A stretch of 52,040 bases of DNA, taken from NCBI GenBank assembly GCA_013152715.1, contig JAADFU010000163.1, positions 1 through 52,040 of the forward strand, written 5' to 3'. The position numbers were made by a program, and so were the translations under genes. The notes beneath the pieces are model-generated. The model was not told the origin of the DNA, did not search any database, and worked only from the letters and a program-made list of their open reading frames with translations. Shown here piece by piece: positions 3 through 51,932 of this stretch (positions within the stretch are counted from its first letter, which is position 1; each line of letters starts with the position of its first letter). This DNA is from Calditrichota bacterium (GTDB lineage Bacteria > Zhuqueibacterota > Zhuqueibacteria > Thermofontimicrobiales > Thermofontimicrobiaceae).

Positions 3-3000
3 GAAATAACTTATGGCGAACCCGACCCGTCCGGCTATTTCGATCAGAGCAATGGTATCGTTCCGCCCTTGCTTAATTCTAAAACCTATAACTGGATTAT
101 TTTGAATAATTATGGCGGCACACCGAATTTAAGTTCAATTATTCAATCCGGTGTGCAGGGTTTTACCGTAAATATTTCCGTAAATTTGACGCCTCCGGCG
201 TTAATCTCTCCCCCCCAGGGCGCTACGCTTTCAAACGAAGAAATTGAGTTTTCCTGGCAGCCAGTGGCTAATGCCCAATCTTATCAATTTGAACTTTTTG
301 AACAAATTGAGGAAAGGGGATCAACATCGACTTTGCTTGTCTGGCAAGTGATCACTTCAGCAAATAGATTATTTTTTCCTGCTCGCACTGTGCTGAGAAA
401 TGGATACTTTGAGTGGCATGTAATTGCTCTGAATGAAGCGGGCAAGGGCGTTGTGAGTGAACGTCGGAATTTTACTTACTCGGTTCCTTCCGGAAAATTA
501 AATGTTCTCACTTTAACAGAGTTTGGAAATAACTTGTCCCGAGTTGCCGTAAAGGTGATTCCAATTCAGGGCAATGGCGAAACTGTAGATTTTTCAACTA
601 CCGATTCAGGAACCCTGGAACTGGAATTACAGCCCGGGAGCTATCAGCTTTCCTTTTCCAAATTTGGTTTTCGGGATACGGTACTGACTGCCGAGGTTGA
701 AGTAAACCAATCTTCTGAAGCAAGAATTTATTTAAGACTGCTCACACGTACTGTTACTGGCTCTGTCGTGGATCAAAACAATGAGCCTGTTTCGCATGCC
801 CGCATAGTTGCAATCGATTTGCTGAATTCGCGTCATAAAACAACGATGGTGAGTGATGTCCCAGGACGATTTCAATTTCCGTTATCTGGTTCAATTTATG
901 GCCTTTTTGCTGCAAAATCAGGGTATTTGCCCGCCGATACTGTACAAATTGATCTCACATCGCAATCGGAAATATCTTTAGCAGCGCCATTGAGATTAAA
1001 GGAAAACACGAGCCGAATTCTCGGAAAAGTTACCAATCAAAACGGAGTCCCAATCTTTGGAGTGAAGGTCGAAGCTAATAGGGATAAAATTCAGCTATCA
1101 ACTCTTACAGACATGAATGGCGCTTTTCAATTGGCAATTGGTAGCGGCTCATGGGATGTTGTTGCCCAAAAGCCTGGCTACAGTCAGGAAAATCCGCGAA
1201 TTATTTCGGTTAATGAAAATCAGACCATCACCTTATCGCCTGATTTAATAATTCATTCAAACGCAGCATCGCTCAGCGGGCTAATTACTGACGGGGATAA
1301 AGGAATCGCCGATGTTGAAATTACAGCAATTTCTTCTCAAGGCAATACTTTTAAAACGCAGAGCAATGATAAAGGTCATTTTTCAATTGATTTGATGGCT
1401 GACTTGTATCAATTATATTTTCATCATGAGGGGTATATTGATCCTTTGCCGCAACATTTATCACTTGAGCCTGACCAAAATATTAGTGATTTAGTCATAA
1501 AAATGTCTCCTGCTTTATCCGAAGTAACCGGAAAGATTCTTTCTCATGGTTTGCCGTTGTTTAACGCAATTGTCACCAACGGAATTGCCTACGACACGTC
1601 AAGGATTGACGGATATTATGATTTAAAACTAGCTCCTGGTACACATCAGCTTTTTGTAAAAAAAACTGGTTATTATCAAGATAATTTTCCTCAGATTACA
1701 TTAAGTCCGGGGCAATCTTTGACGAATTATAATATAGAATTATTGCCCGGAGCAGCGACTATTAAGGGCAGAATTAGTAGTGGCAATCGCCCCATCCCTT
1801 TTGCACGGGTCATGGCAATTCAGGGAAATGATTCGCTAAAAGCCTACTCTGACCTCAGCGGCGATTTTTCATTTTCCGTTGCACCAGGTCTCTGGAAATT
1901 AGTGGCTGCCAAAGAAGGCTATCTGACCGGCAGTTATCCGGATATTGCTGTGCAAGCAAATCAAGTGCTTCAGGGAATTGAAATCATTCTTGCTGCAAAT
2001 TACGGAATCGTCAAAGGGCAGATCATCGATTCGCAGAACAACAAAATAAGTCAGGCGCTCATAATTTGTCAACAGCGCAGTCAGCAAGCTATTTCTGATT
2101 ACAATGGAAATTATACTTTACAGTTGAGCCCCGGCGATTTGGCATTTTCAGTTTATAAAGAGGGTTATGAAAATCAATCCATTAATGCAACAATCAGTCA
2201 AAGCCAGACAACAACATTGAACTTTGTTCTGAACAAATATGGTACTGTCACCGGGAAAATAACTGATCCGAACGGAACACCAATAAACCGAGCGACTGTA
2301 CTTGCCTTTCAGGGAAGCGATACGCTGAAAGATTATTCTGATTATGCCGGAGAGTATCGCCTGAATTTGCCGGACGGAAGTTACCAACTACAAGCAGACA
2401 AATTGGGATACGCCGTCGTACAACAGCAGCTTTCATTGCAAAATGCTCAGGTTTTAATCAGAAATATAGAGTTGCCGTTCAAACCTGAAGAAATTGCCGA
2501 AATATCAGGTAATGTTTCAGTGGATAATCGTTTCCCTCTGCCCGGCGTATTGGTAAAACTTTTCGGAAAACAAAGCAAAGAAACGCAGACCAATTTGAAC
2601 GGCAGTTACATGATTCAGCAGCTTGAAACTCAATTCGACTATTCTCTAAAACCTGCTAGGGACTCTTATTTTTTCATACCACCGTATCGCCGCTACGCCC
2701 CGCTTACAGAATCGAAAACGACGGAGCAAAATTTTGTCGCGTCATTGTTTGGTGATCTGAGCAATAATCAGGAAGTCAGTTCTTTTGACGGATCATTGGT
2801 TTTGCGCATTTCAGCTAGAAAGAATATTACACCCTATTTTACGACCTTTCCCAGGGACTCTCTCGCAGCCGATGTAAGCGGGAACAAAAAGATTAGTTCT
2901 TTTGACGCGTCACTCATTTTCCGCTATACTGTTGGTTTGATTAACAGATTCCCGGTTCAGGATTCAATGAAGATCACAAAAGAAAAATCCGCTGGTCGGG

Positions 3001-3677
3001 AAAAAGCTTTTGTACGATATGAGTTGAAAAAACTGAATAGTGATACAAGACGTCTTATAGTTTTCATTTCTGAATCGCCACAGTTTTATTCATTGGATGC
3101 AATCTTGACATATCCTGCCAGTCTGTACGAACCAATTGACATGCATCCGGCTAAAGCGCTCCGGCAAATGCATTACGAATGGAATCATCAAAACGGGAGA
3201 TTGTTTTTTGCGTTCGCTGCACCAGAAAAAATCAGTTTTTCTGGTGCTGATACATTGTTTAGTGTCGATTTCCATTCTAAAGCTTCTGAAAAGATTAAAA
3301 ATCCAGATGAATTATTTGACTTACAGCTTGAATTTGACGAAGGCGCATTTCCCATATCCATTGAGAGAAAAACAAATATTCCCGACCGGTTTTATGTATC
3401 ACAAAATTATCCCAATCCTTTTAATAGCACAACCGTTTTTGAAATTTGGTTACCTAAACTTTCTCATGAAAGGTCATCAAAGTTGCGAGTGGAAATATAT
3501 AATTTGCTCGGTCAAAAGGTTGGGACAATAGTTGATCGCGAACTTCAACCCGGGTTTTATCGATTCCAATGGCCTGAAAATCCAGCACATAACTATAATT
3601 TGTGCAGCGGATTGTATTTTGTCCTTGTCAAGTATGCTCAATATCATGAGTTAAAAAAAATGGTACTTGTACGATAG
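3..3677 (+). CDS. Large secreted protein, 5' truncated: FnIII-like, ~9 CarboxypepD_reg repeats, dockerin pair, cohesin-like domain, T9SS sorting domain
   Basis: The reading frame is open from the first base, so the gene starts outside the window; 1224 residues are visible. Numbering from base 3, the order is: a fibronectin type III-like domain (about 60-162), roughly nine tandem carboxypeptidase-regulatory-like beta-sandwiches of about 80 residues (about 165-913), and two dockerin-type calcium loops. The loops start at Asp918 and Asp957 and have Asp/Ser/Asn at positions 1/3/5, Ser at 9 and Asp at 12. A cohesin-like sandwich (about 995-1117) follows, then a type IX-like C-terminal sorting domain from about 1130 with NYPNPFNS and a GLYFVLV strand. 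By family knowledge this is an exported, cell-surface or released protein. Dockerins bind cohesins, and the next gene encodes eight cohesin-like domains, so the two products may associate (inference). No enzyme domain is visible in this part; one could lie upstream. Confidence 0.9.
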   Translation, partial: EITYGEPDPSGYFDQSNGIVPPLLNSKTYNWIILNNYGGTPNLSSIIQSGVQGFTVNISVNLTPPALISPPQGATLSNEEIEFSWQPVANAQSYQFELFEQIEERGSTSTLLVWQVITSANRLFFPARTVLRNGYFEWHVIALNEAGKGVVSERRNFTYSVPSGKLNVLTLTEFGNNLSRVAVKVIPIQGNGETVDFSTTDSGTLELELQPGSYQLSFSKFGFRDTVLTAEVEVNQSSEARIYLRLLTRTVTGSVVDQNNEPVSHARIVAIDLLNSRHKTTMVSDVPGRFQFPLSGSIYGLFAAKSGYLPADTVQIDLTSQSEISLAAPLRLKENTSRILGKVTNQNGVPIFGVKVEANRDKIQLSTLTDMNGAFQLAIGSGSWDVVAQKPGYSQENPRIISVNENQTITLSPDLIIHSNAASLSGLITDGDKGIADVEITAISSQGNTFKTQSNDKGHFSIDLMADLYQLYFHHEGYIDPLPQHLSLEPDQNISDLVIKMSPALSEVTGKILSHGLPLFNAIVTNGIAYDTSRIDGYYDLKLAPGTHQLFVKKTGYYQDNFPQITLSPGQSLTNYNIELLPGAATIKGRISSGNRPIPFARVMAIQGNDSLKAYSDLSGDFSFSVAPGLWKLVAAKEGYLTGSYPDIAVQANQVLQGIEIILAANYGIVKGQIIDSQNNKISQALIICQQRSQQAISDYNGNYTLQLSPGDLAFSVYKEGYENQSINATISQSQTTTLNFVLNKYGTVTGKITDPNGTPINRATVLAFQGSDTLKDYSDYAGEYRLNLPDGSYQLQADKLGYAVVQQQLSLQNAQVLIRNIELPFKPEEIAEISGNVSVDNRFPLPGVLVKLFGKQSKETQTNLNGSYMIQQLETQFDYSLKPARDSYFFIPPYRRYAPLTESKTTEQNFVASLFGDLSNNQEVSSFDGSLVLRISARKNITPYFTTFPRDSLAADVSGNKKISSFDASLIFRYTVGLINRFPVQDSMKITKEKSAGREKAFVRYELKKLNSDTRRLIVFISESPQFYSLDAILTYPASLYEPIDMHPAKALRQMHYEWNHQNGRLFFAFAAPEKISFSGADTLFSVDFHSKASEKIKNPDELFDLQLEFDEGAFPISIERKTNIPDRFYVSQNYPNPFNSTTVFEIWLPKLSHERSSKLRVEIYNLLGQKVGTIVDRELQPGFYRFQWPENPAHNYNLCSGLYFVLVKYAQYHELKKMVLVR

Positions 3678-3925
3678 TGTGAATAAAATATCATGCGATA
3701 AATTTAAATTGGAAAATTTAGCGCTTAATGAGTACAATCTCAGCGGTTGACCATCCCGATGCATTTGTCATTACAGGTTTTGCCATTTCGTTAATTGTTG
3801 ATGTCTAAAATTGATTGGAAGAGAAAAAGATGTTTCACCTCCGTTGCAAATGAAATTTTCAAATAAAATTAAGCAAATTCATTCTAACGGGTATTACGGA
3901 TTCGAAGGAAATTAGCCTCATCATT

Positions 3926-6900
3926 ATGAAAAAATTAAAAATTACCATTCTATTTTTAGGATTGCTTTTATTTTCGAATAATCTACTGGGTCAAACGTCG
4001 ACTGTGACGATTCCCGATATCAGCGCGCCGGCGGGCAAAGATGTGAATCTGGATATTCAGGTGAGCGATCTGACGGGCCTAGAGGTTTTCTCGGTTGACT
4101 TTGCTTTGGCATTCGACGGCAACTTGTTGCAAGCCTTGGAAGTAAGTAGTGCTGGCGCAATATCTGCGCCGTGGGGAAATCCGACCATCAATATTTCATC
4201 AGGAAACGTAATCGTATCATTGGCAGGTATCGACCCCTTATCAGGAGGGGGGAAATTGGTTCGTATTAAATTCCATGTTTCAGAGACTGCTTCTTTTGGT
4301 GACAGCACAGAACTCTTGTTTTTAAATTTTAAATTTAATGACGGCCAGCCGCAGGCAATTACGCAAAACGGAAGGTTCACTGTCTCCGGTGATCTTAACC
4401 CGCCTACGATCGTAAGCGGCCCGACGATTATCGAAAAAAATTATTTTAATGTCAAAATCCACTTTGAAACGGATGAGCCTTCTTCCGCTGTCGTGCTTTA
4501 TGGAGAAAATATTTTTTATGGACAGGGTGTCTCAGATACAAATTTCACGTCTTCGCACATATTAAATTTAACGGATTTGCGGGAAACAACAAAATATTAT
4601 TACCAGATTCAATTGACAGATTCCCTGAATAATGGGCCGTCTGTTTTTTCCGGATATACATTTACATCCAGAGAAGTTTCGCTGACTCTTCCTGATGTGA
4701 CTGCCGATCCTGGCACTGATGTGATGATTCCGGTTTTCATCCCTGATTTCACCGACTTGAATGTTCAGAAAATAAAAATGGAGATCCTTTTTGATCAAAA
4801 TCAATTGCAGGTTTTCGGCATTAATATTTCGAACACCGTATTAGCAAACAGGCCTTTGCCGCAGATTACAATACAAACAAATAAGTTGATTTTGTCGGCC
4901 GAATACACTACATCTTTGCAAGGGGGAGGTACGCTGTTTTTTATCAGCGGAAAAATTCCGGTTACCGCAGTTTTAAGCCAGCCATCAGAAATTCGTTTCA
5001 ACAACGTCGCTTTGAACGACGGTCAAATCAGATTAGTTACCAATGACGGCTCGCTTACTGTTGAAGATCGTCTCCCGCCACAGATTGTAAGCGGCCCAGA
5101 AATAAATGACATTAGCAGTAATTCCGCTACAATTCGTTGGCAGACAAACGAACCTGCAACCAGTCTCATTCAGTATGGCCTGTCGGGATCTTATTCCTAT
5201 TCACAGCAAAAACAGACATTTGTCACGAATCATGAAATTACTTTGTATCATTTGAATCCGGGAGTAACTTATCATTTCAGGGTGGGTGGCAAAGATAGCA
5301 GCGGCAATGGGCCCAATTGGAGCGATGATGCGATATTTGTGACCTCAGCATCTGATGTCTCAGTCGGATTTCCTGATACAACTGTTCATGCCGGAACGAC
5401 GATGTGGATTCCTTTGCTAACCTCAAATATCGCCGATTATTCGGTCAAAACCTGGAGCGCGCTCATAGGGTATGACTCGAAAAAAATGAAATTAATGGAC
5501 ATTAAACAGGAAAACACGCTAATTTCGACCTGGAATCCGATTCAGGTAGATTCTACCGCTGGTTACATTTCTATTAATGCTAATGGCTCTTATGCCATTT
5601 CTGGAGCAGGAGAATTGATCCTGCTGGAATTTAAAATAAAAGATTCGAATCAAACCAACCAAACAGCGGAAATTGCATTACTCAATTTTCGTTATGATCA
5701 GGGGTGGCCCGCAGTAAATGCTTACAATTCTACCATAAATATCATAGGCGCAGCGGACATATTGCCGCCGCAGATCACGTGGGGACCTTATGTCGATAAA
5801 ATAACCAATAGTTCAGCGCGCATTTACTGGCGCACCGATGAATTATCTTATGCTGAAATTGAATACGGAGCTACGGGAACTTACGGTAACACTAAAATTT
5901 CCAGTGAGTTGGATACTCTCCATCAAATTATTTTAACGAATCTGCAACCAAATTTCCAATATCATTATCATGTACGAAACCGAGACCTGGCAGACAATAT
6001 TTCTCTGTTTTCAGCGGACAGCACTTTTTCAACTCTTTCTGGAAACAGTGTCGCTGTATCGATTCCGATTCGTTCCGCAAATGCCGGTGCTGTAATTGAG
6101 ATTCCGATTCATACAACAAATCTTACCGGACTGGAAGTCTATTCGTGCGACATCGATATTGATTACGATGAGACAAAATTATCCGCAATATCGGCGAGCA
6201 GCGCTGGTTGTCTGACTTCTTCTTGGGGGAATCCGGTTTACACAATATTCCAGGGAGAGCTCATCGTCGCCATGGGAGGTATTCAGGCTTTGCAGAACGA
6301 AGGAGATCTTGTCAAATTAAAATTTCAGGTTTCCAACTCTGCCAGGCCAAATGATATTGCAATTATTCGCTTTAACAGTTTTGTTTTCAATGAAGGTACG
6401 CCTTTATCTTCGCTAAATTTCGGAACAATAAAAGTAAAAGATAATATTCCGCCAAGATTGCTCGTCGGTCCCGTGGTGATGGACATCCAGCCTAATTCTA
6501 CCATTATTGCCTGGCAAACAGATGAGCCTGCCAATTCCCGCGTTCTTTGGGGAATTCAGTCCGCGGATGAAAATATTATTTTAAACGAGACCGTACAAAA
6601 ATATCATGCGGTTCTATTGGATGGCCTTGCGCCGCATACGACTTATAGCTACCGCATTGCTTCAACTGATTCATCCGGTAACGGTTGGATGTCTGATCAA
6701 ATTTATCAATTTACGACTTCATCGATAAACCAACTTTCCTTTTCAGTAGGAAGAGCAGAAGCAGACCGCAATCAGGATATTTTGATTGCGCTGAGCCAAG
6801 CCGGTAGCAGCGCCCGTCCGATTTTTTCATTGGATTTTGATTTGATTTTTAGTGGGGAGGTGTTGGAATTTAAAGACGCTGTGATTACTTCAGCGGAAGC

Positions 6901-9900
6901 GTCTGCTTGGAGCAAAGAATTTCAGGTAATAAATAATGGGAAAATTCATTTTCATCTTCAGGGATTTCAACCAGTTATGCATGATGGTGAGTTGCTCAAA
7001 TTTCAATTTCTCAGCAAATCTGCTCCTTTCGGTTCCACAAGTGCAATTGAAATGAGGCACTTATTTGTCAATGGCGATTCGTCTAATATTTCAATTACTA
7101 ACGGTATTTTTCGGTTAATTGACAGAACCCTTCCTGTTTTTGTGACTGAGCCTATTATCAGTCAAATTCATGCCATGTCAGCGCATATCAACTGGCAAAC
7201 TGATGAGTTAACCACGGGAGTTATTGTTTATAATAAGGTCGGTTTTAGTCCGGATACAATAAAAATTTTAACTCCTGCAACGGAGACAAACTATACGCTG
7301 ACAGGGTTATCGCCCATTACAACTTACCAGCTAAAAGTTGGGATCACAGATACCAGCGGAAACGGGCCTGTGTGGGGTAATTTGTTAGAATTTTCAACTA
7401 CCAGCGGCAATGAGGTTGAAGTCGTATTGCCGGATACAGCTTTTGCCATTGGTGACACAGTTTTGTATCCAATTTTATTAACCACGTCGCCAACAATTCC
7501 CATTAATAATTATGAATTCAAATTAGTTTATAATTCAAACTTTTTAGAATTTCTGAACACCAATCAAACCGGCTCATTAACTGAATCCTGGCAAAATCCG
7601 ACAAAAATTGTGAAGAGGGATTCTCTGATAATTTCTCATTCGGCAGGACAGGCTATTTTGCAAACTGGGATTCTTTTAAAACTTCAATTTGTAATTAAAC
7701 AGCAGGCTCACCATGAACAGCGGCTTCCGCTTCGTTTTGCATCTTTTGTTTTCAACGATGGCGTGCCACCTGCTTCAGTCCGAAACGGATCAATTCGCTG
7801 TCTCGATTTTTCACCTCCGAAGTTTATCGACTCTCCGACTGTGACAGAAATTCATCCAAAATCTGTTGTAATCAAAGTGCAGACTGACGAACCGACAACA
7901 CTGACTTTAAATTACGGTCAAGATTCTACAATGGGGACAATTCTGACGATTTCTGAAACCGATACGCTGCATTTTATTACAATTGAAAACTTAATCCCAA
8001 ATCAAACCTATTATTATCAGGTACAGGCATTCGATTCTCTGAATAATGGCCCAACAACCAGCGAGATTCTGACCCTTCACACGGCTGAACAAATTCTTTT
8101 TGTGTCTATTCCTGATACTTCAATAGCCATTGGTTCAGATTTTGAGCTTCCTGTTTTTGTTTCTGATGTGACAGATCTTGAAATCAGACAGTATTCTCTG
8201 GAAATTCGCTATGATGTTCAAAATCTGATGCCTCTGGGGATTTCCATTGATAGCAGTTTGACGTCGGAGTGGAGCAATGGTACTTTTTCAAGCAATGATC
8301 AAAAAATTGTCTATTCTAATTCCGGCTTGAGTGACCTGCAAGGAAGCGGCGTTCTTTTTTGGCTAAAATTTAACCTGGCGTCAGCCGCCATTGTTGGGGA
8401 CAGTACAGAACTAAACATCACGCAGGCAAACTTCCAGAGCAGCGCGGCATCGGTAGAGACAAAAAATGGCAAGGTTTATTTTGCTAAACAAGATTCCGCT
8501 GATATTGAAGTATCTTTGCCGGACACTTCAGTTCTGCCAACGTCTCAGTTCGAAGTCGCTCTCAAAATTTCTGACCCGACGCCAATTGAGATCACTTCTT
8601 ATTCTTTTGTATTCAGCTTTGACGAAAATATTTTGGGCCTGGATAAAATTGAAACAAAAAACACGCTGACAAAGAATTGGTCGCCGATAACATATTCCGG
8701 CAGCGGAGACAGTCTGCAAATATCTCATTCAGGGGCAGAGCCAGTCACAGGAGCCGGGATTCTGCTAAAATTCAATTTTTATGTGAAAGAAGATGCAGCC
8801 ACGGGTTCGAAATCTGATTTGAAAATAAATGACTTCCGCATCAATAACAACGTACCTGTCGCCAGAGCTGCCAATGGCTCTGTGACTGTTGTTGAGCCGG
8901 CAAATAAAATTGTCGGTTATACGAAAAACAAACGATTCCCCGATGAAACGATAAGCGGCGCACAAGTCTATGCATTGGACCTGGAAAATCAAATTGTTTC
9001 AGAATCGCAGTCAGATTCATCCGGCTATTTTGAGCTTTCTGATCTGGCGTTTGAAAAACAATATCGGGTTGCCGCCATAAAAGCTGATTTCTCTCCTTCT
9101 GATACCCTGAATGGGATTTATCCGAGCTATCAGGAGATAGAGCTGTTTTTAATGGCTCAAGATGGGGAGATTTCAGGATTTGTAAAAGATATTAATCAAG
9201 AACCCATCGAACAGGCTGTTTTGTCAGTAAATAATCATCGCGGATTTATAGTATCGGTCAATAGTGACCAAAATGGAGAATTTCAAATCAAATATTTAGA
9301 CCGCCGTTTTCCGTATCAATTGACGATAACTAAATATGGATTTGACAATAAAACGATGGAGAATATTTTCATCGGAGACAGAGACACAACAATGACGATT
9401 GTGTTGGACTGGAAGTATGGAACAATTTCAGGCCTGACGGAAAATCCTCAAAATGAGCCAATTTCCGATGTGACAATAAGTATTTACTACCAAAGTAGCG
9501 GACAACTATTCAGGACAACCAGAACAGACATCAATGGTCATTTTCGAGTGGATAGCTTGAAAGCAGATTCCTACTTAGTGGTCGCACAAAAATCAGGTTT
9601 TCTGACAACACCCAGACAGATTAATGTCAATTTGGCACCGGACGAAGAGAAAAACATTAAGTTTCAGTTAAAACCTTTTCAATTGGAATCAATCCAAATA
9701 ACAGGAGAGTCATTTTCCATTCCCAATGGTCATCCGACGCAATTTTCATTTATTGCCTTATCTGACAGCGGCGAAACAATTGATCAGCTTGAAGCCCTGC
9801 AGTGGCAATTATTTCCGGAATTGGCAGGGGCTGTCACTGACGGCATAGTCTATCCTGACAGTTCATATTTGGGGCCAGCGTCTTTGATCTTAATCGAGCC

Positions 9901-10663
9901 TAATTTCGCGATTAGTGATACGGTGAATCTTTTTATTTATGCTGATATAAATCCCAATCAAGCCTATCAATTGCATGACGATGAAGGAATGGAACTAATT
10001 TTTCCGGAAGGCGCAGCGCCTTCTTCTTTTCAATTAAAATTTGACATTTCACCTCTGCAATCAATAAAAGGCGCCACGCGTTCCCATATACTCATTGGCA
10101 AGGGCTATGATTTTAAGCCTGCGGAAATTGAATTATTGAAGCCGGCGCTTCTGATATTACCGGTTCCGGCAGATTATCAAAATCGACAGTTGAAAATCGG
10201 TTCTTGGGATCCGTCTCGCGCCGAATGGCATATTTTATTGGGTAGCCATTTAATAGACTCGGACAGGATCGAAGCAGAAATAGAAAGTTTTGCTCTTTTT
10301 GCTCTGCTCTTTCCATCTCAGCCTTTGGGTGCCCATGATATTAAACTAACTCCGAATCCATTTTCGCCGCAAATTGACACTGATGGCGACGGTCAGCCCG
10401 GAGTTGCCATTAGTTTTTCCGTGTCGTCTGAGAACATTAGGCAGCCATTTGTAACAATTAAAATTTATTCACTTTACGGAGAATTGGTCAGTGCTCTGGT
10501 TACACAAAGGCCTTTGGACAAAGGAAAAATTTATTCCTTTCATTGGGACGGAAAAACGAATCAGGGGCGCATGGCGAGAAACGGGCGCTATCTTATTCAA
10601 ATTCAAATGAAAGATCAGAAAGAAACGAAAAATTATTTAAAACAGGTCGTATTAATCAAATGA
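3926..10663 (+). CDS. Scaffoldin-like giant surface protein with eight cohesin-like domains, FnIII-like linkers and T9SS-type tail
   Basis: 2245 residues. It begins with a signal peptide (MKKLKI..., cleavage near LLGQ). Eight cohesin-like domains start near residues 24, 251, 478, 709, 937, 1164, 1391 and 1526; each opens with a strand such as VTIPD, LPDVT or LPDTS. The first six are each followed by a fibronectin type III-like domain introduced by a PP-x-x-x-x-GP motif and carrying a TDEP or TNEP turn, giving a period of about 228 residues. Cohesins 7 and 8 follow each other without a full linker. Three carboxypeptidase-regulatory-like domains (about 1663-1915) come next, then an Ig-like stretch, a ZU5-like region and a FlgD-type C-terminal domain (about 2130-2245) of the kind found in T9SS cargo. 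No catalytic domain was recognised, so the role is probably structural: docking dockerin-bearing partners at the cell surface. The stop codon overlaps the start of the next gene. Confidence 0.92.
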   Translation: MKKLKITILFLGLLLFSNNLLGQTSTVTIPDISAPAGKDVNLDIQVSDLTGLEVFSVDFALAFDGNLLQALEVSSAGAISAPWGNPTINISSGNVIVSLAGIDPLSGGGKLVRIKFHVSETASFGDSTELLFLNFKFNDGQPQAITQNGRFTVSGDLNPPTIVSGPTIIEKNYFNVKIHFETDEPSSAVVLYGENIFYGQGVSDTNFTSSHILNLTDLRETTKYYYQIQLTDSLNNGPSVFSGYTFTSREVSLTLPDVTADPGTDVMIPVFIPDFTDLNVQKIKMEILFDQNQLQVFGINISNTVLANRPLPQITIQTNKLILSAEYTTSLQGGGTLFFISGKIPVTAVLSQPSEIRFNNVALNDGQIRLVTNDGSLTVEDRLPPQIVSGPEINDISSNSATIRWQTNEPATSLIQYGLSGSYSYSQQKQTFVTNHEITLYHLNPGVTYHFRVGGKDSSGNGPNWSDDAIFVTSASDVSVGFPDTTVHAGTTMWIPLLTSNIADYSVKTWSALIGYDSKKMKLMDIKQENTLISTWNPIQVDSTAGYISINANGSYAISGAGELILLEFKIKDSNQTNQTAEIALLNFRYDQGWPAVNAYNSTINIIGAADILPPQITWGPYVDKITNSSARIYWRTDELSYAEIEYGATGTYGNTKISSELDTLHQIILTNLQPNFQYHYHVRNRDLADNISLFSADSTFSTLSGNSVAVSIPIRSANAGAVIEIPIHTTNLTGLEVYSCDIDIDYDETKLSAISASSAGCLTSSWGNPVYTIFQGELIVAMGGIQALQNEGDLVKLKFQVSNSARPNDIAIIRFNSFVFNEGTPLSSLNFGTIKVKDNIPPRLLVGPVVMDIQPNSTIIAWQTDEPANSRVLWGIQSADENIILNETVQKYHAVLLDGLAPHTTYSYRIASTDSSGNGWMSDQIYQFTTSSINQLSFSVGRAEADRNQDILIALSQAGSSARPIFSLDFDLIFSGEVLEFKDAVITSAEASAWSKEFQVINNGKIHFHLQGFQPVMHDGELLKFQFLSKSAPFGSTSAIEMRHLFVNGDSSNISITNGIFRLIDRTLPVFVTEPIISQIHAMSAHINWQTDELTTGVIVYNKVGFSPDTIKILTPATETNYTLTGLSPITTYQLKVGITDTSGNGPVWGNLLEFSTTSGNEVEVVLPDTAFAIGDTVLYPILLTTSPTIPINNYEFKLVYNSNFLEFLNTNQTGSLTESWQNPTKIVKRDSLIISHSAGQAILQTGILLKLQFVIKQQAHHEQRLPLRFASFVFNDGVPPASVRNGSIRCLDFSPPKFIDSPTVTEIHPKSVVIKVQTDEPTTLTLNYGQDSTMGTILTISETDTLHFITIENLIPNQTYYYQVQAFDSLNNGPTTSEILTLHTAEQILFVSIPDTSIAIGSDFELPVFVSDVTDLEIRQYSLEIRYDVQNLMPLGISIDSSLTSEWSNGTFSSNDQKIVYSNSGLSDLQGSGVLFWLKFNLASAAIVGDSTELNITQANFQSSAASVETKNGKVYFAKQDSADIEVSLPDTSVLPTSQFEVALKISDPTPIEITSYSFVFSFDENILGLDKIETKNTLTKNWSPITYSGSGDSLQISHSGAEPVTGAGILLKFNFYVKEDAATGSKSDLKINDFRINNNVPVARAANGSVTVVEPANKIVGYTKNKRFPDETISGAQVYALDLENQIVSESQSDSSGYFELSDLAFEKQYRVAAIKADFSPSDTLNGIYPSYQEIELFLMAQDGEISGFVKDINQEPIEQAVLSVNNHRGFIVSVNSDQNGEFQIKYLDRRFPYQLTITKYGFDNKTMENIFIGDRDTTMTIVLDWKYGTISGLTENPQNEPISDVTISIYYQSSGQLFRTTRTDINGHFRVDSLKADSYLVVAQKSGFLTTPRQINVNLAPDEEKNIKFQLKPFQLESIQITGESFSIPNGHPTQFSFIALSDSGETIDQLEALQWQLFPELAGAVTDGIVYPDSSYLGPASLILIEPNFAISDTVNLFIYADINPNQAYQLHDDEGMELIFPEGAAPSSFQLKFDISPLQSIKGATRSHILIGKGYDFKPAEIELLKPALLILPVPADYQNRQLKIGSWDPSRAEWHILLGSHLIDSDRIEAEIESFALFALLFPSQPLGAHDIKLTPNPFSPQIDTDGDGQPGVAISFSVSSENIRQPFVTIKIYSLYGELVSALVTQRPLDKGKIYSFHWDGKTNQGRMARNGRYLIQIQMKDQKETKNYLKQVVLIK

Positions 10664-11595
10664 AACAAAAGAACTTTTTTGCTAAAATTTTTATTTTGGC
10701 GGTAATGACAATTACTTCTGCCAAAGTCAATGGGCAGGAATTGGCGAATTTTAGTTCATCCTTTGTAGATATTGGTTTTGGCGCTCGTCCCCTGGGCATG
10801 GGCAAGGCTTATTCAGCGCTGGTCTCTGATGCCAGTGCTCTTCTCTGGAATCCGGCGGGAATAGCAGAAATTACTGCTTTTGAGGGTACTTTTTCATATA
10901 CTAAATTGTTCAACATCATTCCTTACAGTTTCGCCGCGCTGGCATTTTCACCGGCAACTAACCATGCTATCGGTGCTGGTGTTATTATTTCAGGGGATCA
11001 ATTATTAAAGGAGATTTCTTTTATTTCTGGCTATGGAGGGAGGTTTTCTTTTAGACATCGCCGACTAAATGTAGGAATCACTCTCACATTACACTCTGCT
11101 TCTTTTGGCAAAAACGAACCCGCTAATGGCGCTGTCAGTGGGGATGCTTTTGGCTTCGGCATTGGAATTGGCTTACAATATTATTTTTCTCAAAATATAG
11201 TTTTTGCTGCTCATGTTCAAAATCTGTTAAATAAAATTGAATGGAATAGTTCATCAAGCAGCAAATACGAAGAAGGCCTGCCACGGCGGTTAATTTTCGG
11301 TGTCGCTGATAAAAATTCCCATTCCATGAATTTTGAATTGGACTTCCAAAAGTCTCTTTACCGGGAACTCGAAGACAAAATCTATCTCGGAGCTGAACGC
11401 GTCTTCTTAAATAAAATTTTTCTCCGTTCAGGTGTCGGAGCATCATTTTCTGATGATCGGCCGCTTTTTTGCACCTTTGGATTTGGCGTTAGTCATTACC
11501 TCAAAAAGAGATTTTATTTTCGATTTGACGGCGCATATATCATTCATCCCTTGGAAAATATGATTCGGCTGTCGATGTCATGCAGAATTGAATGA
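10660..11595 (+). CDS. PorV/PorQ-type outer-membrane beta-barrel protein (T9SS-associated family)
   Basis: 311 residues from ATG 10660. A longer frame opens upstream, but its first 39 codons lie inside the scaffold gene. The residues from MKQKNFF form a proper signal peptide ending near VNGQ, and the ATG overlaps the upstream TGA as ATGA, so this start is preferred. The mature N-terminus carries the family signature, with FVDIGFGARPLGMGKAY then DASALLWNPAGIAE, followed by beta-rich strands to the C-terminus. PorV in type IX systems shuttles cargo to the sortase at the outer membrane; PorQ and related FadL-like members have other or unknown roles. Translational coupling to the cohesin scaffold suggests a dedicated carrier or anchor for it (inference). 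Confidence 0.9.
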   Translation: MKQKNFFAKIFILAVMTITSAKVNGQELANFSSSFVDIGFGARPLGMGKAYSALVSDASALLWNPAGIAEITAFEGTFSYTKLFNIIPYSFAALAFSPATNHAIGAGVIISGDQLLKEISFISGYGGRFSFRHRRLNVGITLTLHSASFGKNEPANGAVSGDAFGFGIGIGLQYYFSQNIVFAAHVQNLLNKIEWNSSSSSKYEEGLPRRLIFGVADKNSHSMNFELDFQKSLYRELEDKIYLGAERVFLNKIFLRSGVGASFSDDRPLFCTFGFGVSHYLKKRFYFRFDGAYIIHPLENMIRLSMSCRIE

Positions 11596-19063: not shown

Positions 19064-20281
19064 ATGCGCATCTTCACCAAAACAATTCCCATTGCTTTGT
19101 TGACGATCATTTTGCTTTTCGTTTTTAATTGCTCTCAAACGAACAAAAACGTGGAGGCTGCTCCGGTGAAAAATATTTCTCGCGCTACAAACACTTTTGG
19201 GGTGCTGTTGCTGCGGAAAATGGTTGCCATGTCCAATGAAGAAAATGTCGTCATTTCTCCGATCAGCATTTCCGCTGCTTTGTCCATGACGCTGAATGGG
19301 GCGGACAAAGAAACCTTGCAGACGATGAAAAAAGCGCTGTCTCTGGAGAAGTATTCTTCTGAACAGATCAATCGCTACTATCGTGCTTTGCTGGATAGTC
19401 TGCCGGAGCTGGACCGGGAAGTTCAACTCAAAATTGGCAATGCCATTTGGTATCGGGACGAATTTCGCGTGAGGTCAAAATTTAAACGGACTCTGGAAAA
19501 ATTTTATCATGCTGAAATTAACGAGGCTGATTTCAAAGACAGTCGCGTTGTCGATGAAATCAATGGCTGGGTGCAAAAAAGTACCAATGGCAAAATTTCC
19601 AATATCATCGACCGCGTGAATCCCGCGGATGTGATGTATTTGCTGAACGCCGTGTATTTCAAAGGAATGTGGCAGCATCGTTTTGATGAGAGAGCGACCG
19701 AAGAAGCGGTGTTTTATCCGGCGTCGGGAAACAAAACAACTTGCCAGATGATGAAAGCTTCGAAAAAATTTGTCTATTTCGAGGATGAAAAGGTGCAGGT
19801 AGTTCATCTGCCTTACGGTAGCGGAGAATTTGAAATGGTTGTGATTTTGCCGCAGGAAAATGTCTCGCTGGATTCATTGGTCGAACAGGTCGATACCACT
19901 TCTTTTCTGGGCTGGCTCGCTTCCGGAAGCAAAGAAACTGTCGCCCTCTCTTTTCCAAAATTTAAGATAAAATACAAAAAATCCCTGAAATCCGTATTGT
20001 CTCAAATGGGCATGCGAAATGCTTTTCAGCCCGGGGCCGATTTTTCAAAAATGGTGAAAGATGAAAAACTAAACATCAGCGATGTGAAACACAAGACTTT
20101 CATCGAGGTTAACGAAAAAGGCACAGAAGCGGCCGCGGTCACCGGAGTGACAATGGTCCTCTCGGCCGCGCGTCCATCGAGAATTTATCGTATGGAAGTG
20201 AACAGACCCTTTTTATTCGTGATTACTGAAAAAAAATTCAATGACATTCTGTTCATGGGAAAAATCGGAAAGCCGGAATAA
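19064..20281 (+). CDS. Serpin (serine protease inhibitor), putative lipoprotein
   Basis: 405 residues covering the complete serpin fold. The N-terminus is hydrophobic and ends in FNCSQ (Cys23), a plausible but atypical lipobox with Asn at -1. Core motifs are NVVISPISISAALSM, NAVYFKGMW and the C-terminal NRPFLFVI. The reactive-loop hinge is of the inhibitory type: Glu, Lys, Gly353 (P15), Thr, then a run of small residues (EAAAVTG). Counting from P15 puts P1 near Ser367 with Leu366 and Ala368 beside it, suggesting elastase- or subtilisin-like targets (inference). Serpins trap serine or cysteine proteases irreversibly. A membrane-tethered one would protect surface proteins from the cell's own or foreign proteases. 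AAGGAGG precedes the ATG, and the next gene follows after 15 bases. Confidence 0.95.
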   Translation: MRIFTKTIPIALLTIILLFVFNCSQTNKNVEAAPVKNISRATNTFGVLLLRKMVAMSNEENVVISPISISAALSMTLNGADKETLQTMKKALSLEKYSSEQINRYYRALLDSLPELDREVQLKIGNAIWYRDEFRVRSKFKRTLEKFYHAEINEADFKDSRVVDEINGWVQKSTNGKISNIIDRVNPADVMYLLNAVYFKGMWQHRFDERATEEAVFYPASGNKTTCQMMKASKKFVYFEDEKVQVVHLPYGSGEFEMVVILPQENVSLDSLVEQVDTTSFLGWLASGSKETVALSFPKFKIKYKKSLKSVLSQMGMRNAFQPGADFSKMVKDEKLNISDVKHKTFIEVNEKGTEAAAVTGVTMVLSAARPSRIYRMEVNRPFLFVITEKKFNDILFMGKIGKPE

Positions 20282-31285: not shown

Positions 31286-33655
31286 TTGAATAAGAATGTC
31301 ACATTAATAATGTTAGCTGCGGTTTTCTTCACCGGAGCTTTGTTTGCGGATACAATTCCTATTAGCCAGTTACATCAAAATGACAGCGACGGCGTGCCGA
31401 CTCTGTTGGGCCAGACCGTTTCCATTCGAGGAGAAGTAACAGTTGCAGCACAATTTGGCGTGAGTTCCTACGTAGAAGATGAAACGGGCGGCGTGGCGAT
31501 TTACGACGATGCCTTTGCAAAAGCGGTGAACGTCGGCGATTTGGTTACTGTAACCGGCACTGTTGATCAGTACAAAGGATTGACGGAATTGAAATCAGTT
31601 GTGATCGACGAGCATGTTCCGGGTAGCCCTGCTGTTACGCCAGAAATTGTTACTTGCAAAATGATCGCGGACGAAGGCGCCAATGGTGTCGAGACGCTCG
31701 AGGGACGGCTCATTCGCATTAACGGCGTCATTGTTGATACGGATTCCTGGGCGGTTTCCGGTTCCGGCACGAATTACACGCTAACAGATGCCACTGGCAG
31801 TTGCGAGATTCGCATTGACAAAGATTGCGCCATAGCCAATACAAATTCTCCGAGCGGCTCCTTTGACGTCATCGGCGTTGTTTCTCAGTATGATTTCTCA
31901 GCGCCGTACACCGACGGCTATCAAGTGATGCCGCGCTTTTTGGAAGATATCATTTTTCTGTCCGGCCCTAAAATTATTCAGGGCCCTGAGATAACAAAGA
32001 TTGAACCTTACGCCCTCGAAATTTCCTGGGGAACAGACGTGGCGGCCAACTCTATTCTGATGTACGGTTTAACAAATCAATTTGAGATTGACACGTTAAC
32101 TTTTTCGGAAGTAGGAACAGGTCACGCAATTTATTTGAACAATCTCACTCCGGCGACTTTGTACCACATTCGCGTCGGCTCGGCAAATGAGACTGGGGCT
32201 AACTATTCCGGCGATCTGTTTGCCATGACTGCCTCAGATCCGTCTTCCACGGGCGAAATTAATGTTTATTTCAACCATTCAGTAGATCATTCGCTGGCAA
32301 TGTCTGGCAATGAAGCGCAAGGAAATCAAGACCTGGCGCAGAAATTCATTGATCGGGTGAACGCAGCGCAGTATTCCATTGATGTCTGCATTTATTCTTG
32401 GGATTTGTACAACGTGGCAAACGCTATTATTGACGCCAAAAATCGCGGTGTGAAAATTCGTTTTATCAATGACGCGGATCATGCCTACCAGACGCAAATT
32501 ACCAAACTGCGCTCTGCCGGAATTCAGGTGATTGACCAGAGTTTTAGTGAATTGGGCAGTTGGGGAATTCAACACAATAAATTCGCTGTTTTTGACGCTC
32601 GCGACAATAGCTCGGCTGCGGATGATTGGGTCTGGACCGGCTCTGTGAATTTTACTGACTATTCGGAATTGGGCGTAAATGCATTTCAGAATGCGCTCGA
32701 AATCCGAGATCAATCGTTGGCAAAGGCTTACACGCTGGAGTTTGAAGAAATGTGGGGTTCAAATACCGATACTCCGAACAGCGCAGTTTCCCGCTTTGGC
32801 GCCAACAAGACGGACAATTTGCCGCATCATTTCAATATTGGCGGCAGACGCGTGGAATTGTACATGTGCCCGACAGACGGGGCGACGTCGCAAATCATCG
32901 AAGAAATTGAACATGCAGATCGGGAAATTTATTTTTCAATTTTAGCGTTCACCAGATACGACGTGCAGGACGCCATGCATGAGCGAGTTTTAGCGCGGCC
33001 GACATTTTACCTCCGCGGTGTTTTTGATAGCGGCCAAGATCAGTCCAGCCAATACTATCCCATGAGCGGCTCCGGAGATAATGGCTGGAATCCTGCGGCA
33101 GATGTCCGGCTCGATGCCGAATACGGTGTTCTGCATCACAAGTACATGATCATCGACGCCAACCACGCTGAATATGATCCGGTCGTGATTACCGGCTCGC
33201 AAAATTGGTCAACGAGCGCTGAAACAAAAAATGATGAAAATACGCTGATCATCCACGATGAAAAAATTGCCAACCAATATTTGCAAGAATTTGCCGCTCG
33301 TTATCACGCAGCCGGCGGAAGCGCTTCATTGACGCAAGTCAATGAAAAACAATCTATTGAGTTACCAAAAAAGTTTTGGCTGGAACAAAATTATCCCAAT
33401 CCGTTTAATAGTCATACCATCGTTCGCTTTCAGATTTCCAAGGAGAGCCGTATTCATTTTATCATTTACAATGTGCAGGGAAAAATTGTGCGCAACGATG
33501 ATTTGGGAATTCTTCCCGCTGGCAAACATCGTTTGCAATGGGACGCGAAAAATTGGCGCCATCAAACTGTGGCGGCGGGTGTTTATTTTTACATTTTGCG
33601 AACAAACGAGACAATGACCTCGACACAAGTCGGAAAAATGATATATTTGCCTTAA
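31286..33655 (+). CDS. Secreted phospholipase D-superfamily nuclease with OB-fold, FnIII-like domain and T9SS sorting domain
   Basis: 789 residues from a TTG start, supported by GAAAGGAA five bases upstream and a signal peptide ending near LFADT. Order: OB-fold nucleic-acid-binding domain of the YhcR type (about 25-230: TVSIRGEVTV, GDLVTVTGTV), a fibronectin type III-like domain (about 232-325), two PLD half-sites, and a C-terminal sorting domain from about 700 (NYPNPFNS). Catalytic H-x-K motifs are His430/Lys432 (QHNKFAVFD) and His617/Lys619 (HHKYMIID, then GSQNWS), so both halves look active. OB-fold plus PLD plus export suggests an extracellular nuclease used to scavenge phosphate or nucleotides; phospholipase activity is the alternative. 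It has its own promoter and a terminator overlapping its stop. Confidence 0.92.
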   Translation: MNKNVTLIMLAAVFFTGALFADTIPISQLHQNDSDGVPTLLGQTVSIRGEVTVAAQFGVSSYVEDETGGVAIYDDAFAKAVNVGDLVTVTGTVDQYKGLTELKSVVIDEHVPGSPAVTPEIVTCKMIADEGANGVETLEGRLIRINGVIVDTDSWAVSGSGTNYTLTDATGSCEIRIDKDCAIANTNSPSGSFDVIGVVSQYDFSAPYTDGYQVMPRFLEDIIFLSGPKIIQGPEITKIEPYALEISWGTDVAANSILMYGLTNQFEIDTLTFSEVGTGHAIYLNNLTPATLYHIRVGSANETGANYSGDLFAMTASDPSSTGEINVYFNHSVDHSLAMSGNEAQGNQDLAQKFIDRVNAAQYSIDVCIYSWDLYNVANAIIDAKNRGVKIRFINDADHAYQTQITKLRSAGIQVIDQSFSELGSWGIQHNKFAVFDARDNSSAADDWVWTGSVNFTDYSELGVNAFQNALEIRDQSLAKAYTLEFEEMWGSNTDTPNSAVSRFGANKTDNLPHHFNIGGRRVELYMCPTDGATSQIIEEIEHADREIYFSILAFTRYDVQDAMHERVLARPTFYLRGVFDSGQDQSSQYYPMSGSGDNGWNPAADVRLDAEYGVLHHKYMIIDANHAEYDPVVITGSQNWSTSAETKNDENTLIIHDEKIANQYLQEFAARYHAAGGSASLTQVNEKQSIELPKKFWLEQNYPNPFNSHTIVRFQISKESRIHFIIYNVQGKIVRNDDLGILPAGKHRLQWDAKNWRHQTVAAGVYFYILRTNETMTSTQVGKMIYLP

Positions 33656-49481: not shown

Positions 49482-51932
49482 TTATTTAATTAATATCATT
49501 TTTTTTACATCTTGAAATTCATCCATTTGAATATGATAAAAATAGATACCTGAAGCTAAATTATTTGCTTCAAATATGATTTTATGATTACCTGCGTGCA
49601 TTTCTTTATTCAAAATTGTAGAAACTATTTCCCCACTGATATTATATACTTTTAGACTTACATGACAACGATTTGAAACATCAAAATGAATTATTGTGCT
49701 TGAATTAAATGGATTTGGATAGTTTTGAGAGAGAAAAAAAGTTATTGGATTTCCTATAATTATTTCCCCTGTCATATAATATTTATAATCACCTTTATAA
49801 TCCATTTGTTTTAGACGATATTGATATGAGCCAATTAATATGTCAGTGTCTATATATACATAGTTATGTTGTATCGTGGAAGTCCCACAACCTTTTACAA
49901 AATCAATTTCTTGCCAATTGTGATCACCCATTTTTCTTCTCTCTATATAAAATCCATAGTTATTTGATTGAGGGGCTGTTGTCCATTGCAAATGAACATT
50001 ATTTTCAATAATGGTAGCTGTGAATGATATTAATTCCACTGGTACTGATGTTGTCATTAAATTTTCATACCAAGCAATCTTATTATCTTTGCCTGAAGCG
50101 GAAATTATATCTATATCACCATCACCGTCAAGGTCGGTTGCATATACGGACTTTGCCCAATCTGCATCGGTTGAAATTACTTTTTGGCTACTGAAACTGC
50201 CGGAACCATAGTTTTCATACCAAGCAATTTTGTCATCATCCATTGATGCTGATAGTACATCAATATCGCCATCGCCATCAAGATCTTTTGCATGAACACA
50301 ATGCGCACCAAGAGCATTAGTTGTAATAATGCATTGGCTACCGAAGCTGCCTGAACCATTATTTTCATACCAAGCAATTTTGTTGTCATCCTCAGAGGCA
50401 GAGAGCAAATCTAGATCACCATCACCATCAAGATCGGCAGTTGCTAGACAACGGACGCCTTTTGCCTTGGTTGTTATTTCTTGTAGACTGCTGAAACTAG
50501 CTGAACCATCGTTCTCATACCAACCAATCTGGCTGATCCAATTGGTGGTTACGGCTGCTAGCACGTCCATATCCCCATCACCATCAAGGTCTGCTGCATA
50601 GACAGTATTAGCTGCATTTAAATCTGTGTCGATCGCATTTTCACTGCTAAAACTACCCGAACCATTATTTTCGTACCATGCGATTTTGTCATGCCATTGG
50701 GATACGGAGAGAACATCTACGTCATTGTCACCATCGAGATCTGCCGCAAACACAGACCTCGCTCCATCTGCCTCTGTTGATATTATCTTTTCGCTGCTAA
50801 AATTGCCTGAACCGTCATTCTCATACCATGCAATTTTATCATCATCATATGACGCAGAGAGCACATCGATGTCGCCATCGCGGTCCAAATCAGCATAGTA
50901 AATGGAACGGACGTTATTTGCCTCGATGGTAATCAAATTCGGATGACCGAAACTTCCTGCTCCGTTGTTCCTATACCAAGCAATTTTATCATCTTGTCTA
51001 GATGAGGAAAGCACATCCATGTCACCATCCCCATCAAAATCTGCGGCTAAAACATTATTTGCATTATATGCATTCCAGCTGAATACATACTGGCTAATAA
51101 AATTACCTGAACCGTCATTTTCATACCAAGCAACCTTGTCGTCGTATATAGATGCATTAAGCACATCCATATCGCCGTCGTTATCCAAGTCTGCAGCATA
51201 AAATGATGAGGGTCTTTTTACATTACTATTGATATCAAACGTATTGTTGAACCTTCCTGAACCGTCATTTTCATGCCAAACGATTTTCTGCAATTTATTT
51301 GTATGAACTGCAGCAGATAGTACATCCAAATCACCATCCCCGTCGATATCCGTCACAAAAAAAGTGCTCAGTTCAGCGTTTGTGCTGGAGAAAATCTCTC
51401 TTTCATACATAAATCCAAGTGAACCTACGTTTTCATACCAACAAACAGCGTTCCAATATATTGATGTATAAATTACATCCAAGTCACCATCCCCGTCAAT
51501 ATCAGCAGCGCTAACCGAACTTGCTTCATCTGCCACTGTTGATATTATCTTTTCGCTGCTAAAATTGCCTGAACCGTCATTTTCATACCAAGCAATTTTA
51601 TCATCATCTTTTGATGCTGAGAGTATATCAATGTCGCCATCGCTGTCAATATCTGCTGCGTATATTGACTGGGCCCCTGCTGCGTCAGTCGTTATCACGT
51701 TCTGAGTACTGAAACCAGCAGTACCTTGATTTTCATACCAAGATATTTTATTATCATTCTGTGAGGCAACAATCACATCGAGTTTTCCATCACTATTGAG
51801 ATCAGTGCTGTAAATCGAAGTGGGTGAATCTACTTTCGGAACAATAATTCTTTGATCACTAAATTGTTGTTGAGACAAGGTGGGAGGAATGTAATAAGAA
51901 GATATAATCAAAATTATTAAAATAGTTTTCAT
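49482..51932 (-). CDS. FG-GAP/VCBS-repeat surface protein with T9SS C-terminal sorting domain
   Basis: 816 residues. A signal peptide (MKTILIILIISSYYI..., cleavage near LSQ) is followed by twelve tandem repeats of about 48-52 residues built on a D-x-D-G-D-x-D calcium loop and a KIAWYENDGSG strand (about 30-630). They should close into a beta-propeller like integrin alpha-chain or VCBS repeats, and are likely to bind ligands or surfaces. A fibronectin-like linker (VELISFTATIIENNVHLQW) and a sorting domain from about 730 (FFLSQNYPNPFNSS, then GIYFYHIQ) complete it, so secretion by the type IX system is expected. Some repeats are almost identical in DNA. GGAGAG lies six bases before the ATG. The gene is visibly more AT-rich than the central part of the window. 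Confidence 0.93.
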   Translation of the reverse strand: MKTILIILIISSYYIPPTLSQQQFSDQRIIVPKVDSPTSIYSTDLNSDGKLDVIVASQNDNKISWYENQGTAGFSTQNVITTDAAGAQSIYAADIDSDGDIDILSASKDDDKIAWYENDGSGNFSSEKIISTVADEASSVSAADIDGDGDLDVIYTSIYWNAVCWYENVGSLGFMYEREIFSSTNAELSTFFVTDIDGDGDLDVLSAAVHTNKLQKIVWHENDGSGRFNNTFDINSNVKRPSSFYAADLDNDGDMDVLNASIYDDKVAWYENDGSGNFISQYVFSWNAYNANNVLAADFDGDGDMDVLSSSRQDDKIAWYRNNGAGSFGHPNLITIEANNVRSIYYADLDRDGDIDVLSASYDDDKIAWYENDGSGNFSSEKIISTEADGARSVFAADLDGDNDVDVLSVSQWHDKIAWYENNGSGSFSSENAIDTDLNAANTVYAADLDGDGDMDVLAAVTTNWISQIGWYENDGSASFSSLQEITTKAKGVRCLATADLDGDGDLDLLSASEDDNKIAWYENNGSGSFGSQCIITTNALGAHCVHAKDLDGDGDIDVLSASMDDDKIAWYENYGSGSFSSQKVISTDADWAKSVYATDLDGDGDIDIISASGKDNKIAWYENLMTTSVPVELISFTATIIENNVHLQWTTAPQSNNYGFYIERRKMGDHNWQEIDFVKGCGTSTIQHNYVYIDTDILIGSYQYRLKQMDYKGDYKYYMTGEIIIGNPITFFLSQNYPNPFNSSTIIHFDVSNRCHVSLKVYNISGEIVSTILNKEMHAGNHKIIFEANNLASGIYFYHIQMDEFQDVKKMILIK

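Follow-up and report, generated by a model that had tools for sequence, protein, structure and literature searches.

What does one dockerin do beside an array of eight cohesins on the surface of a Gram-negative bacterium? Cohesin and dockerin are the plug-and-socket pair of cellulosomes, and both domains are also scattered through genomes of organisms that do not degrade cellulose, where their partners and purpose are mostly unknown. We addressed this question for a three-gene locus at the start of a 52,040-nucleotide stretch of DNA (the window: contig JAADFU010000163.1, positions 1 to 52,040, forward strand) from the Calditrichota bacterium assembly GCA_013152715.1, a genome of 4.15 Mb in 211 contigs, using a comparison set of 82 genomes and 62 named loci. 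The first open reading frame (ORF1) encodes a dockerin, the second (ORF2) eight cohesins, and the third (ORF3) an outer-membrane barrel. Fifty relatives carry the outer parts of ORF1 and ORF2 in one chain that is free of cohesins and dockerins, which leads us to read the pair first as a joint; fusion of proteins in relatives is usually a sign that they act together. We put a probability of roughly 60% on the ORF1 dockerin binding cohesin 1 of ORF2 (perhaps also cohesins 4 and 5) and so re-joining a giant protein that is split over two genes. The further step, that the dockerin–cohesin pair replaces a covalent link and serves as a joint within a single protein, not as a socket into which different enzymes can be plugged, seems to us about an even bet. 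The three genes are as follows (TTR, transthyretin-like; Ig, immunoglobulin-like).

3..3677, + strand: ORF1, truncated 5' by the contig boundary; the first half of the split surface protein, with an Ig region and a TTR stack that have their homologues in the N-terminal part of 50 single-chain giants
3926..10663, + strand: ORF2, second half; signal-like N-terminal stretch, eight cohesins mostly alternating with Fn3-like domains, TTR repeats, a unique C-terminal domain, and a tail
10660..11595, + strand: ORF3, outer-membrane barrel, probably of the PorV/PorQ family; orthologues accompany both the split and the single-chain forms

One giant protein, whole or split

How do the two large genes relate to the single chains? 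A profile scan of the relatives and the 62 named loci recovered 50 distinct proteins of 1022-2903 amino acids (aa) that carry the Ig region of ORF1 and the unique C-terminal domain of ORF2 (O2C) in one ORF. None of the 50 matched a cohesin or a dockerin, and Pfam scans of six of them found TTR repeats and neither of the two domains. Segment searches place the parts of the single chain in the order Ig region, TTR stack, TTR repeats of ORF2, O2C, and tail. The gene sits between a second barrel gene (barrel A) and a PorV-like gene, in an order that varies, barrel A sometimes lying downstream. Named carriers include KSB1, Calditrichota with Caldithrix, Eisenbacteria, Krumholzibacteriota, Latescibacterota, Cloacimonadota, Fibrobacterota, and Chitinivibrionales.

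Eight genomes, that of the window (G000) and G003, G004, G013, G061, G066, G068, and G070, have the giant in two pieces, broken at the TTR stack. At the break, a dockerin lies on one side and cohesins on the other, and neither occurs in the single chains: the dockerin is found near the end of ORF1 in seven of the eight split genomes, and cohesins open ORF2 in all eight. In G061, the C-terminal end of ORF1 lies just upstream of ORF2 and covers only the part after the dockerin. Six genomes (G003, G066, G068, G070, G013, and G004, the last on two contigs) have, in this order, barrel A, ORF1 (1400-1455 aa), ORF2, and ORF3, and both the flanking barrels and the gene order of the split loci match those of the single-chain loci. 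A frame error or an assembly break that mimics two genes was considered and rejected, since all eight genomes show the split, complete with a separate tail and a new N terminus.

Among the genomes compared, the split form occurs in the window's phylum only, and the wider spread of the single chains points to these as the ancestral state and to the split form as derived. A tree of O2C does not reject a single clade of split forms (log-likelihood difference 0.07, approximately unbiased test p-AU 0.49). Three genomes (G004, G010, and G068) hold a single-chain paralogue in addition to the split locus. Relatives of ORF3 led to the locus in about 30 genomes; the comparison shows it to be a variant of a conserved surface locus of the Fibrobacterota–Chlorobiota–Bacteroidota (FCB) group that consists of barrel A, a giant protein, and a PorV-like barrel.

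The missing 5' end of ORF1 lies on another contig. The end of contig C132 (L237:8745-10590) carries barrel A, a 490-aa protein, and directly downstream of it the first 133 codons of ORF1. In the alignment of the Ig region, C132 covers positions 1-95 and the window contig (C163) begins at position 151; the two contigs probably adjoin, with a gap of roughly 55 codons.

Many single-chain giants (L162, L166, L168, L174, L188, L195, L196, L197, and others) are close in length, often 2835-2843 aa. Their Ig regions are just about 30-40% identical despite the near-constant length, and some of the proteins carry an N-terminal metallophosphoesterase domain.

The domains at the break

Are the dockerin and the cohesins genuine members of their families? 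The features of ORF1 are as follows (T9SS, type IX secretion system).

3..542, + strand: conserved Ig-like region, C-terminal part (alignment A1 positions 151-330), E 4.4e-74; the N-terminal part is on C132
543..2690, + strand: stack of CarboxypepD_reg (transthyretin-like) repeats, PF13620, nine stretches, E 1.7e-90
2751..2927, + strand: dockerin with two F-hand loops, DLSNNQEVSSFD and DVSGNKKISSFD; conserved more strongly than any other part of ORF1
3000..3335, + strand: cohesin-fold domain 3' of the dockerin, with FYSLD as its strand-3 motif; conserved less than any other part of ORF1
3408..3665, + strand: T9SS type A sorting domain, TIGR04183, 23.8 bits (30.4 bits in the genome search)

The first-pass annotation had seen a dockerin-like calcium pair in ORF1. 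It corresponds to a Dockerin_1 match (PF00404, residues 917-975) that scores 16.9 bits in hmmscan (E 0.0075), under the cut-off of 22.9, and 22.1 bits in the genome search, or 23.1 with its neighbors. Both F-hand loops are complete and conserved over seven genomes, with Ser10-Phe11 invariant in each. Mean agreement with the window residue over these genomes is highest in the dockerin (0.77), followed by the Ig region (0.61), the TTR stack (0.50), the tail (0.48), and the cohesin-like domain (0.37).

ORF2 has the following features.

4001..4366, + strand: cohesin 1, most conserved and most position-faithful; strand-3 motif VFSVDF (Ser56 and Asp58, numbered by eye from the ORF2 start codon at 3926)
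4679..4969, + strand: cohesin 2, strand-3 Asp absent in this genome
5369..5674, + strand: cohesin 3, strand-3 Asp absent
6050..6397, + strand: cohesin 4, second most position-faithful, motif VYSCD
6743..7099, + strand: cohesin 5, motif IFSLD in this genome
7418..7717, + strand: cohesin 6, strand-3 Asp absent
8102..8443, + strand: cohesin 7, strand-3 Asp absent
8504..8890, + strand: cohesin 8, strand-3 Asp absent
8873..9700, + strand: CarboxypepD_reg repeats, collinear with the later TTR stack of the single-chain giants
9701..10375, + strand: unique C-terminal domain O2C, common to the single-chain giants (blastp best E about 1e-11 to 1e-29, first set)
10424..10645, + strand: C-terminal tail, T9SS/FlgD_ig-like; sub-threshold at 19.5 bits (21.5 in the genome search), FlgD_ig E 1.3e-05

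The eight cohesin-like domains noted at first reading are true cohesins. PF00963 matches eight stretches of ORF2 (E 1.5e-57, 194 bits, cut-off 24.1), the AlphaFold2 (AF2) model of cohesin 1 has a mean confidence (pLDDT) of 97.2, and its 50 best matches in the PDB are all cohesins or cohesin-containing constructs, with template-modeling (TM) scores up to 0.87. The possibility, raised in the first-pass annotation, that these repeats are generic Ig-like domains mistaken for cohesins is ruled out by profile and fold alike. Of the T9SS-type tails assigned to both large proteins, that of ORF1 lies just over the TIGR04183 cut-off (23 bits) and that of ORF2 under it.

The cohesins of one ORF2 differ from one another more than they differ between genomes: mean identity is 25% within one ORF2 and 33% between genomes at the same position, and it reaches 45% in cohesin 1, the highest of the eight. 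When each cohesin is compared across genomes, the best match lies at the same position in 70/72 comparisons for cohesin 1, 53/72 for cohesin 4, and 27-54% for the others (296/560 for all pooled). Leaving G061 aside, the array comprises eight cohesins in all ten genomes where it is complete (one of the eight is weak in G013); in G061, in which two contigs overlap by 29 residues, it comprises ten.

Cohesin 1 as the candidate partner

Which cohesin would receive the dockerin? In the CipA cohesin, Asn37, Asp39, Gly123, and Ala125 contact the Ser/Thr motif of the dockerin (PMC5772552), and we took the S-x-D of strand 3 as the equivalent of Asn37/Asp39. The contact Asp is kept in three of the eight cohesins of the window's ORF2 (1, 4, and 5). 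In cohesin 1, S-x-D is present in 8/8 genomes with a visible ORF1 and also in G060, where ORF1 was not searched for; of these nine genomes, seven have it in cohesin 4 and five in cohesin 5. A search with the Ig profile finds no ORF1 in G008 and G010, though ORF2 and ORF3 are present, and the strand-3 residue there is Glu and Ala, respectively, in cohesin 1 and Gln in cohesin 4 of both. From this pattern, together with the conservation of the dockerin and of cohesin 1, we infer that cohesin 1 is the probable partner of the ORF1 dockerin.

Might the two domains instead be structural modules of long surface proteins that bind nothing? T9SS proteins of this phylum commonly contain cohesin-fold domains, and a contact Asp in just three of eight cohesins would fit such a role. 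It would not explain why both calcium loops and Ser10-Phe11 are so highly conserved, why cohesin 1 keeps so faithfully to its position, why the motif is lost where ORF1 is not found, or why the domains coincide with the split. We regard this explanation as very improbable.

Several points weigh against a joint between the dockerin and cohesin 1. The Asp39 equivalence comes from alignments with type I cohesins of known structure other than 1OHZ. G008 and G010 belong to the same family, so the loss of the motif counts as a single event, and both assemblies consist of hundreds of contigs. Something other than dockerin binding may account for the conservation of the first cohesin position in the array. 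Cohesins and dockerins were sought in the single chains mainly with hidden Markov models derived from this genome. In the AF2 model of the ORF1 C terminus, the dockerin carries no confidence. One dockerin faces eight cohesins, which leaves the other cohesins unexplained. Finally, ORF1 has a strand-3 Asp in its own cohesin-fold domain in five of seven genomes, which makes binding in cis, or from one ORF1 copy to another, possible.

This last point opens an alternative in which the ORF1 dockerin binds the cohesin-fold domain of its own or a neighboring ORF1, the dockerin, cohesin, and sorting domain together form a stabilizing cap that many cargo proteins carry, and the cohesins of ORF2 serve as an ordinary stalk. 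The domain in question is modeled with a pLDDT of about 67-87, and its best single-domain PDB match is 2xdh (TMt 0.67). About 20 proteins of the genome show the order dockerin, cohesin-fold domain, T9SS tail, and residues of the dockerin and its neighboring cohesin covary within the polypeptide, as they would also through shared descent. A clasp of this kind is hard to reconcile with a cohesin-fold domain that is the least conserved part of ORF1 next to a dockerin that is the most conserved, or with G066 and G070, where the motif is absent from that domain and the dockerins are unchanged. It also accounts neither for the conservation of cohesin 1 nor for the coincidence of the dockerin and the cohesin array with the split, and we think it quite unlikely.

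Other dockerin proteins of the genome

Is ORF2 a classical scaffoldin, with ORF1 as one client among several? The genome search suggested in the first-pass annotation returned 25 dockerin matches at E<=1, of which 13 score over the cut-off, so the idea of a lone dockerin is ruled out. It also returned 37 cohesin matches (54 domains with a home-made profile). Ahead of their dockerins, these proteins carry mainly peptidases (S8, C25, M14, and C1) and lipases (two of GDSL type). As possible plant-polysaccharide hydrolases or related proteins, the set has one GH114 domain, one CBM4_9 protein, and one cellulose-binding protein of Sde182 type. Many dockerin proteins share a C-terminal order of CarboxypepD_reg, dockerin, cohesin-fold domain, and T9SS tail, and ORF1 ends alike.

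Under the scaffoldin explanation, ORF2 would recruit several of these T9SS proteins (with S8, C25, M14, C1, GDSL, or GH114 domains). The number of dockerin proteins with catalytic domains speaks for it, as does the size of the ORF2 array, by far the largest found in this genome; several would-be clients also carry, beside the dockerin, a cohesin of the Asp39 class. There is a precedent in Ca. Stygibacter (Cloacimonadota), for which a T9SS-anchored cohesin scaffoldin with dockerin-bearing S8 and C25 peptidases and glycoside hydrolases (GHs) has been proposed (PMC8542988). On the other side, most other dockerins of the genome have Ala, Pro, Gly, Met, or Leu at position 10, where ORF1 has Ser10-Phe11, and most dockerin proteins have a cohesin-fold domain of their own right after the dockerin, followed by a T9SS tail. 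ORF2 itself has no carbohydrate-binding module (CBM) or GH domain in a Pfam scan, as had been remarked from the sequence, and lacks the mutually similar, redundant cohesins of a cellulosome. Nor does this explanation say anything of the single-chain relatives. The scaffold proposed in the first-pass annotation thus stands as regards its cohesin, dockerin, and T9SS assignments, but ORF2, with cohesins that are fixed in number, divergent, and conserved by position, is no typical scaffoldin; we consider recruitment of several clients unlikely.

Three further observations concern the modules of these proteins. Across L060-L081, all from this genome, the recognition residues of the dockerin covary with the strand-3 residue of the cohesin in the same chain: TPGD goes with Gly, SAFD or SPFD with Glu, Gln, or Ser, and QMFD or QLYD with Asp. 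Common descent of the module would yield this, and so would pairing in cis. In L063, L064, L066, L068, L069, L075, and L076, the dockerin seems to be inserted within a CarboxypepD_reg domain, the Pfam match ending at 53-67 of 82 before the dockerin and a stretch resembling the last strand (FxPxxRxF...NF.A...GDVxG) following it; in ORF1, by contrast, the dockerin follows a whole CarboxypepD_reg domain. A regular-expression search for dockerins lying inside a TTR domain picked up three cases only. Lastly, six T9SS-tailed proteins encoded side by side at locus L069 (G000:C121:14000-33990, minus strand) have cohesin domains according to the home-made profile, and several of them bear peptidase domains (S8, and M14 with MAM); the group looks like an exoprotein cluster.

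Predicted assembly at the outer membrane

How would the two halves meet? The genome encodes a homologue of SprA, the T9SS component that was searched for, on contig C74 (709 bits for its main stretch), and a profile search counts 140 T9SS tails. Both halves would be exported, given their N-terminal signal-like stretches (identified by eye), the T9SS tail of ORF1, and the tail of ORF2, which resembles that of the single chains. At the cell surface, the ORF1 dockerin and cohesin 1 of ORF2 (possibly 4 and 5) would then join the halves, a strong, calcium-dependent, noncovalent joint standing in for the peptide link of the single chain. Cohesins 4 and 5 could take up further copies of ORF1 or other dockerin proteins, and the remaining cohesins, which lack the contact Asp in this genome, may be structural.

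The complex would be displayed at the outer membrane with two dedicated barrels, the PorV-like ORF3 and barrel A. The earlier assignment of the third gene to the PorV/PorQ type is probably right: ORF3 matches the family at E 2.6e-20 (73.3 bits against NF033709, under the family cut-off of 90), all 14 members of the ORF3 family alignment match NF033709 (best 9.8e-28), and the profile of that alignment finds PorV 6H3I. The start codon of ORF3 (ATG at 10660) shares ATGA with the stop codon TGA of ORF2. A PDB search with barrel A found nothing beyond a short, weak match to TodX, itself a barrel. By analogy with SprF for SprB and PorP for PG1035, and no more than analogy given that ORF3 is PorV-like, we infer that ORF3 may serve as shuttle or anchor for both halves, and barrel A may have a part in this as well.

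Relation to known systems

How does this locus compare with cohesin–dockerin systems described elsewhere? One of the closest is that of Ca. Stygibacter, likewise a Gram-negative FCB bacterium with a large cohesin protein that ends in a surface-attachment domain and with dockerins on S8 and C25 peptidases, as well as on GHs (PMC8542988). Unlike ORF2, that scaffoldin has CBM2/CBM3 modules and is proposed to gather degradative enzymes, and no split of a single chain is described (PMC8542988). Scaffoldin-like proteins are also present in anaerobic methanotrophic (ANME) archaea (PMC9012536). Together with Ca. Stygibacter, they mean that cohesins on an FCB surface are not new. The Archaeoglobus cohesin 2XDH, which is structurally nearest to cohesin 1 by E-value, and the ANME proteins resemble the present case in placing cohesin and dockerin outside cellulose degradation (PMC9012536); the papers found on such noncellulosomal archaeal and bacterial domains describe no conserved split-gene locus.

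The locus shares with clostridial scaffoldins of the CipA type the cohesin fold, a type I-like sequence, the dockerin with two F-hands, and multiple cohesins. It differs from them in the absence of a CBM, in cohesins that are divergent, position-conserved, and fixed in number, and in a partner that is encoded next door; its attachment would be by a T9SS tail, where clostridial scaffoldins use S-layer-homology or sortase anchoring. In SprB–SprF and PG1035–PorP, as here, a giant T9SS surface protein is encoded beside its own outer-membrane barrel (PMC9143113, PMC12618676). The present barrel probably belongs instead to the PorV/PorQ family, the C-terminal domains are type A-like where theirs are type B, and a second, different barrel flanks the locus.

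A limited search of the open-access literature yielded no description of a dockerin–cohesin pair at the break of an otherwise single-chain protein; for dockerins in KSB1 or Calditrichota it yielded nothing, and for Latescibacteria only an unrelated paper on a fungal microbiome. If the proposal is correct, a cohesin–dockerin pair is used here as a joint within one protein. In this case, comparative genomics itself names the partner pair, the likely cohesin, and the contact residues, and the lineage without a detectable ORF1 provides an internal control. The hosts are mostly uncultured, and the binding prediction can be approached with recombinant domains from DNA alone. The analysis also brings out an apparently uncharacterized surface locus of three genes, for a giant transthyretin-like protein and its two barrels, that is common to several FCB phyla.

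Other genes of the window

Beyond the locus, the window encodes two more proteins with T9SS tails, an FG-GAP repeat protein and a PLD-like domain protein (49482-51932 and 31286-33655). A serpin (serine protease inhibitor) gene lies at 19064-20281, in a genome that is rich in secreted peptidases.

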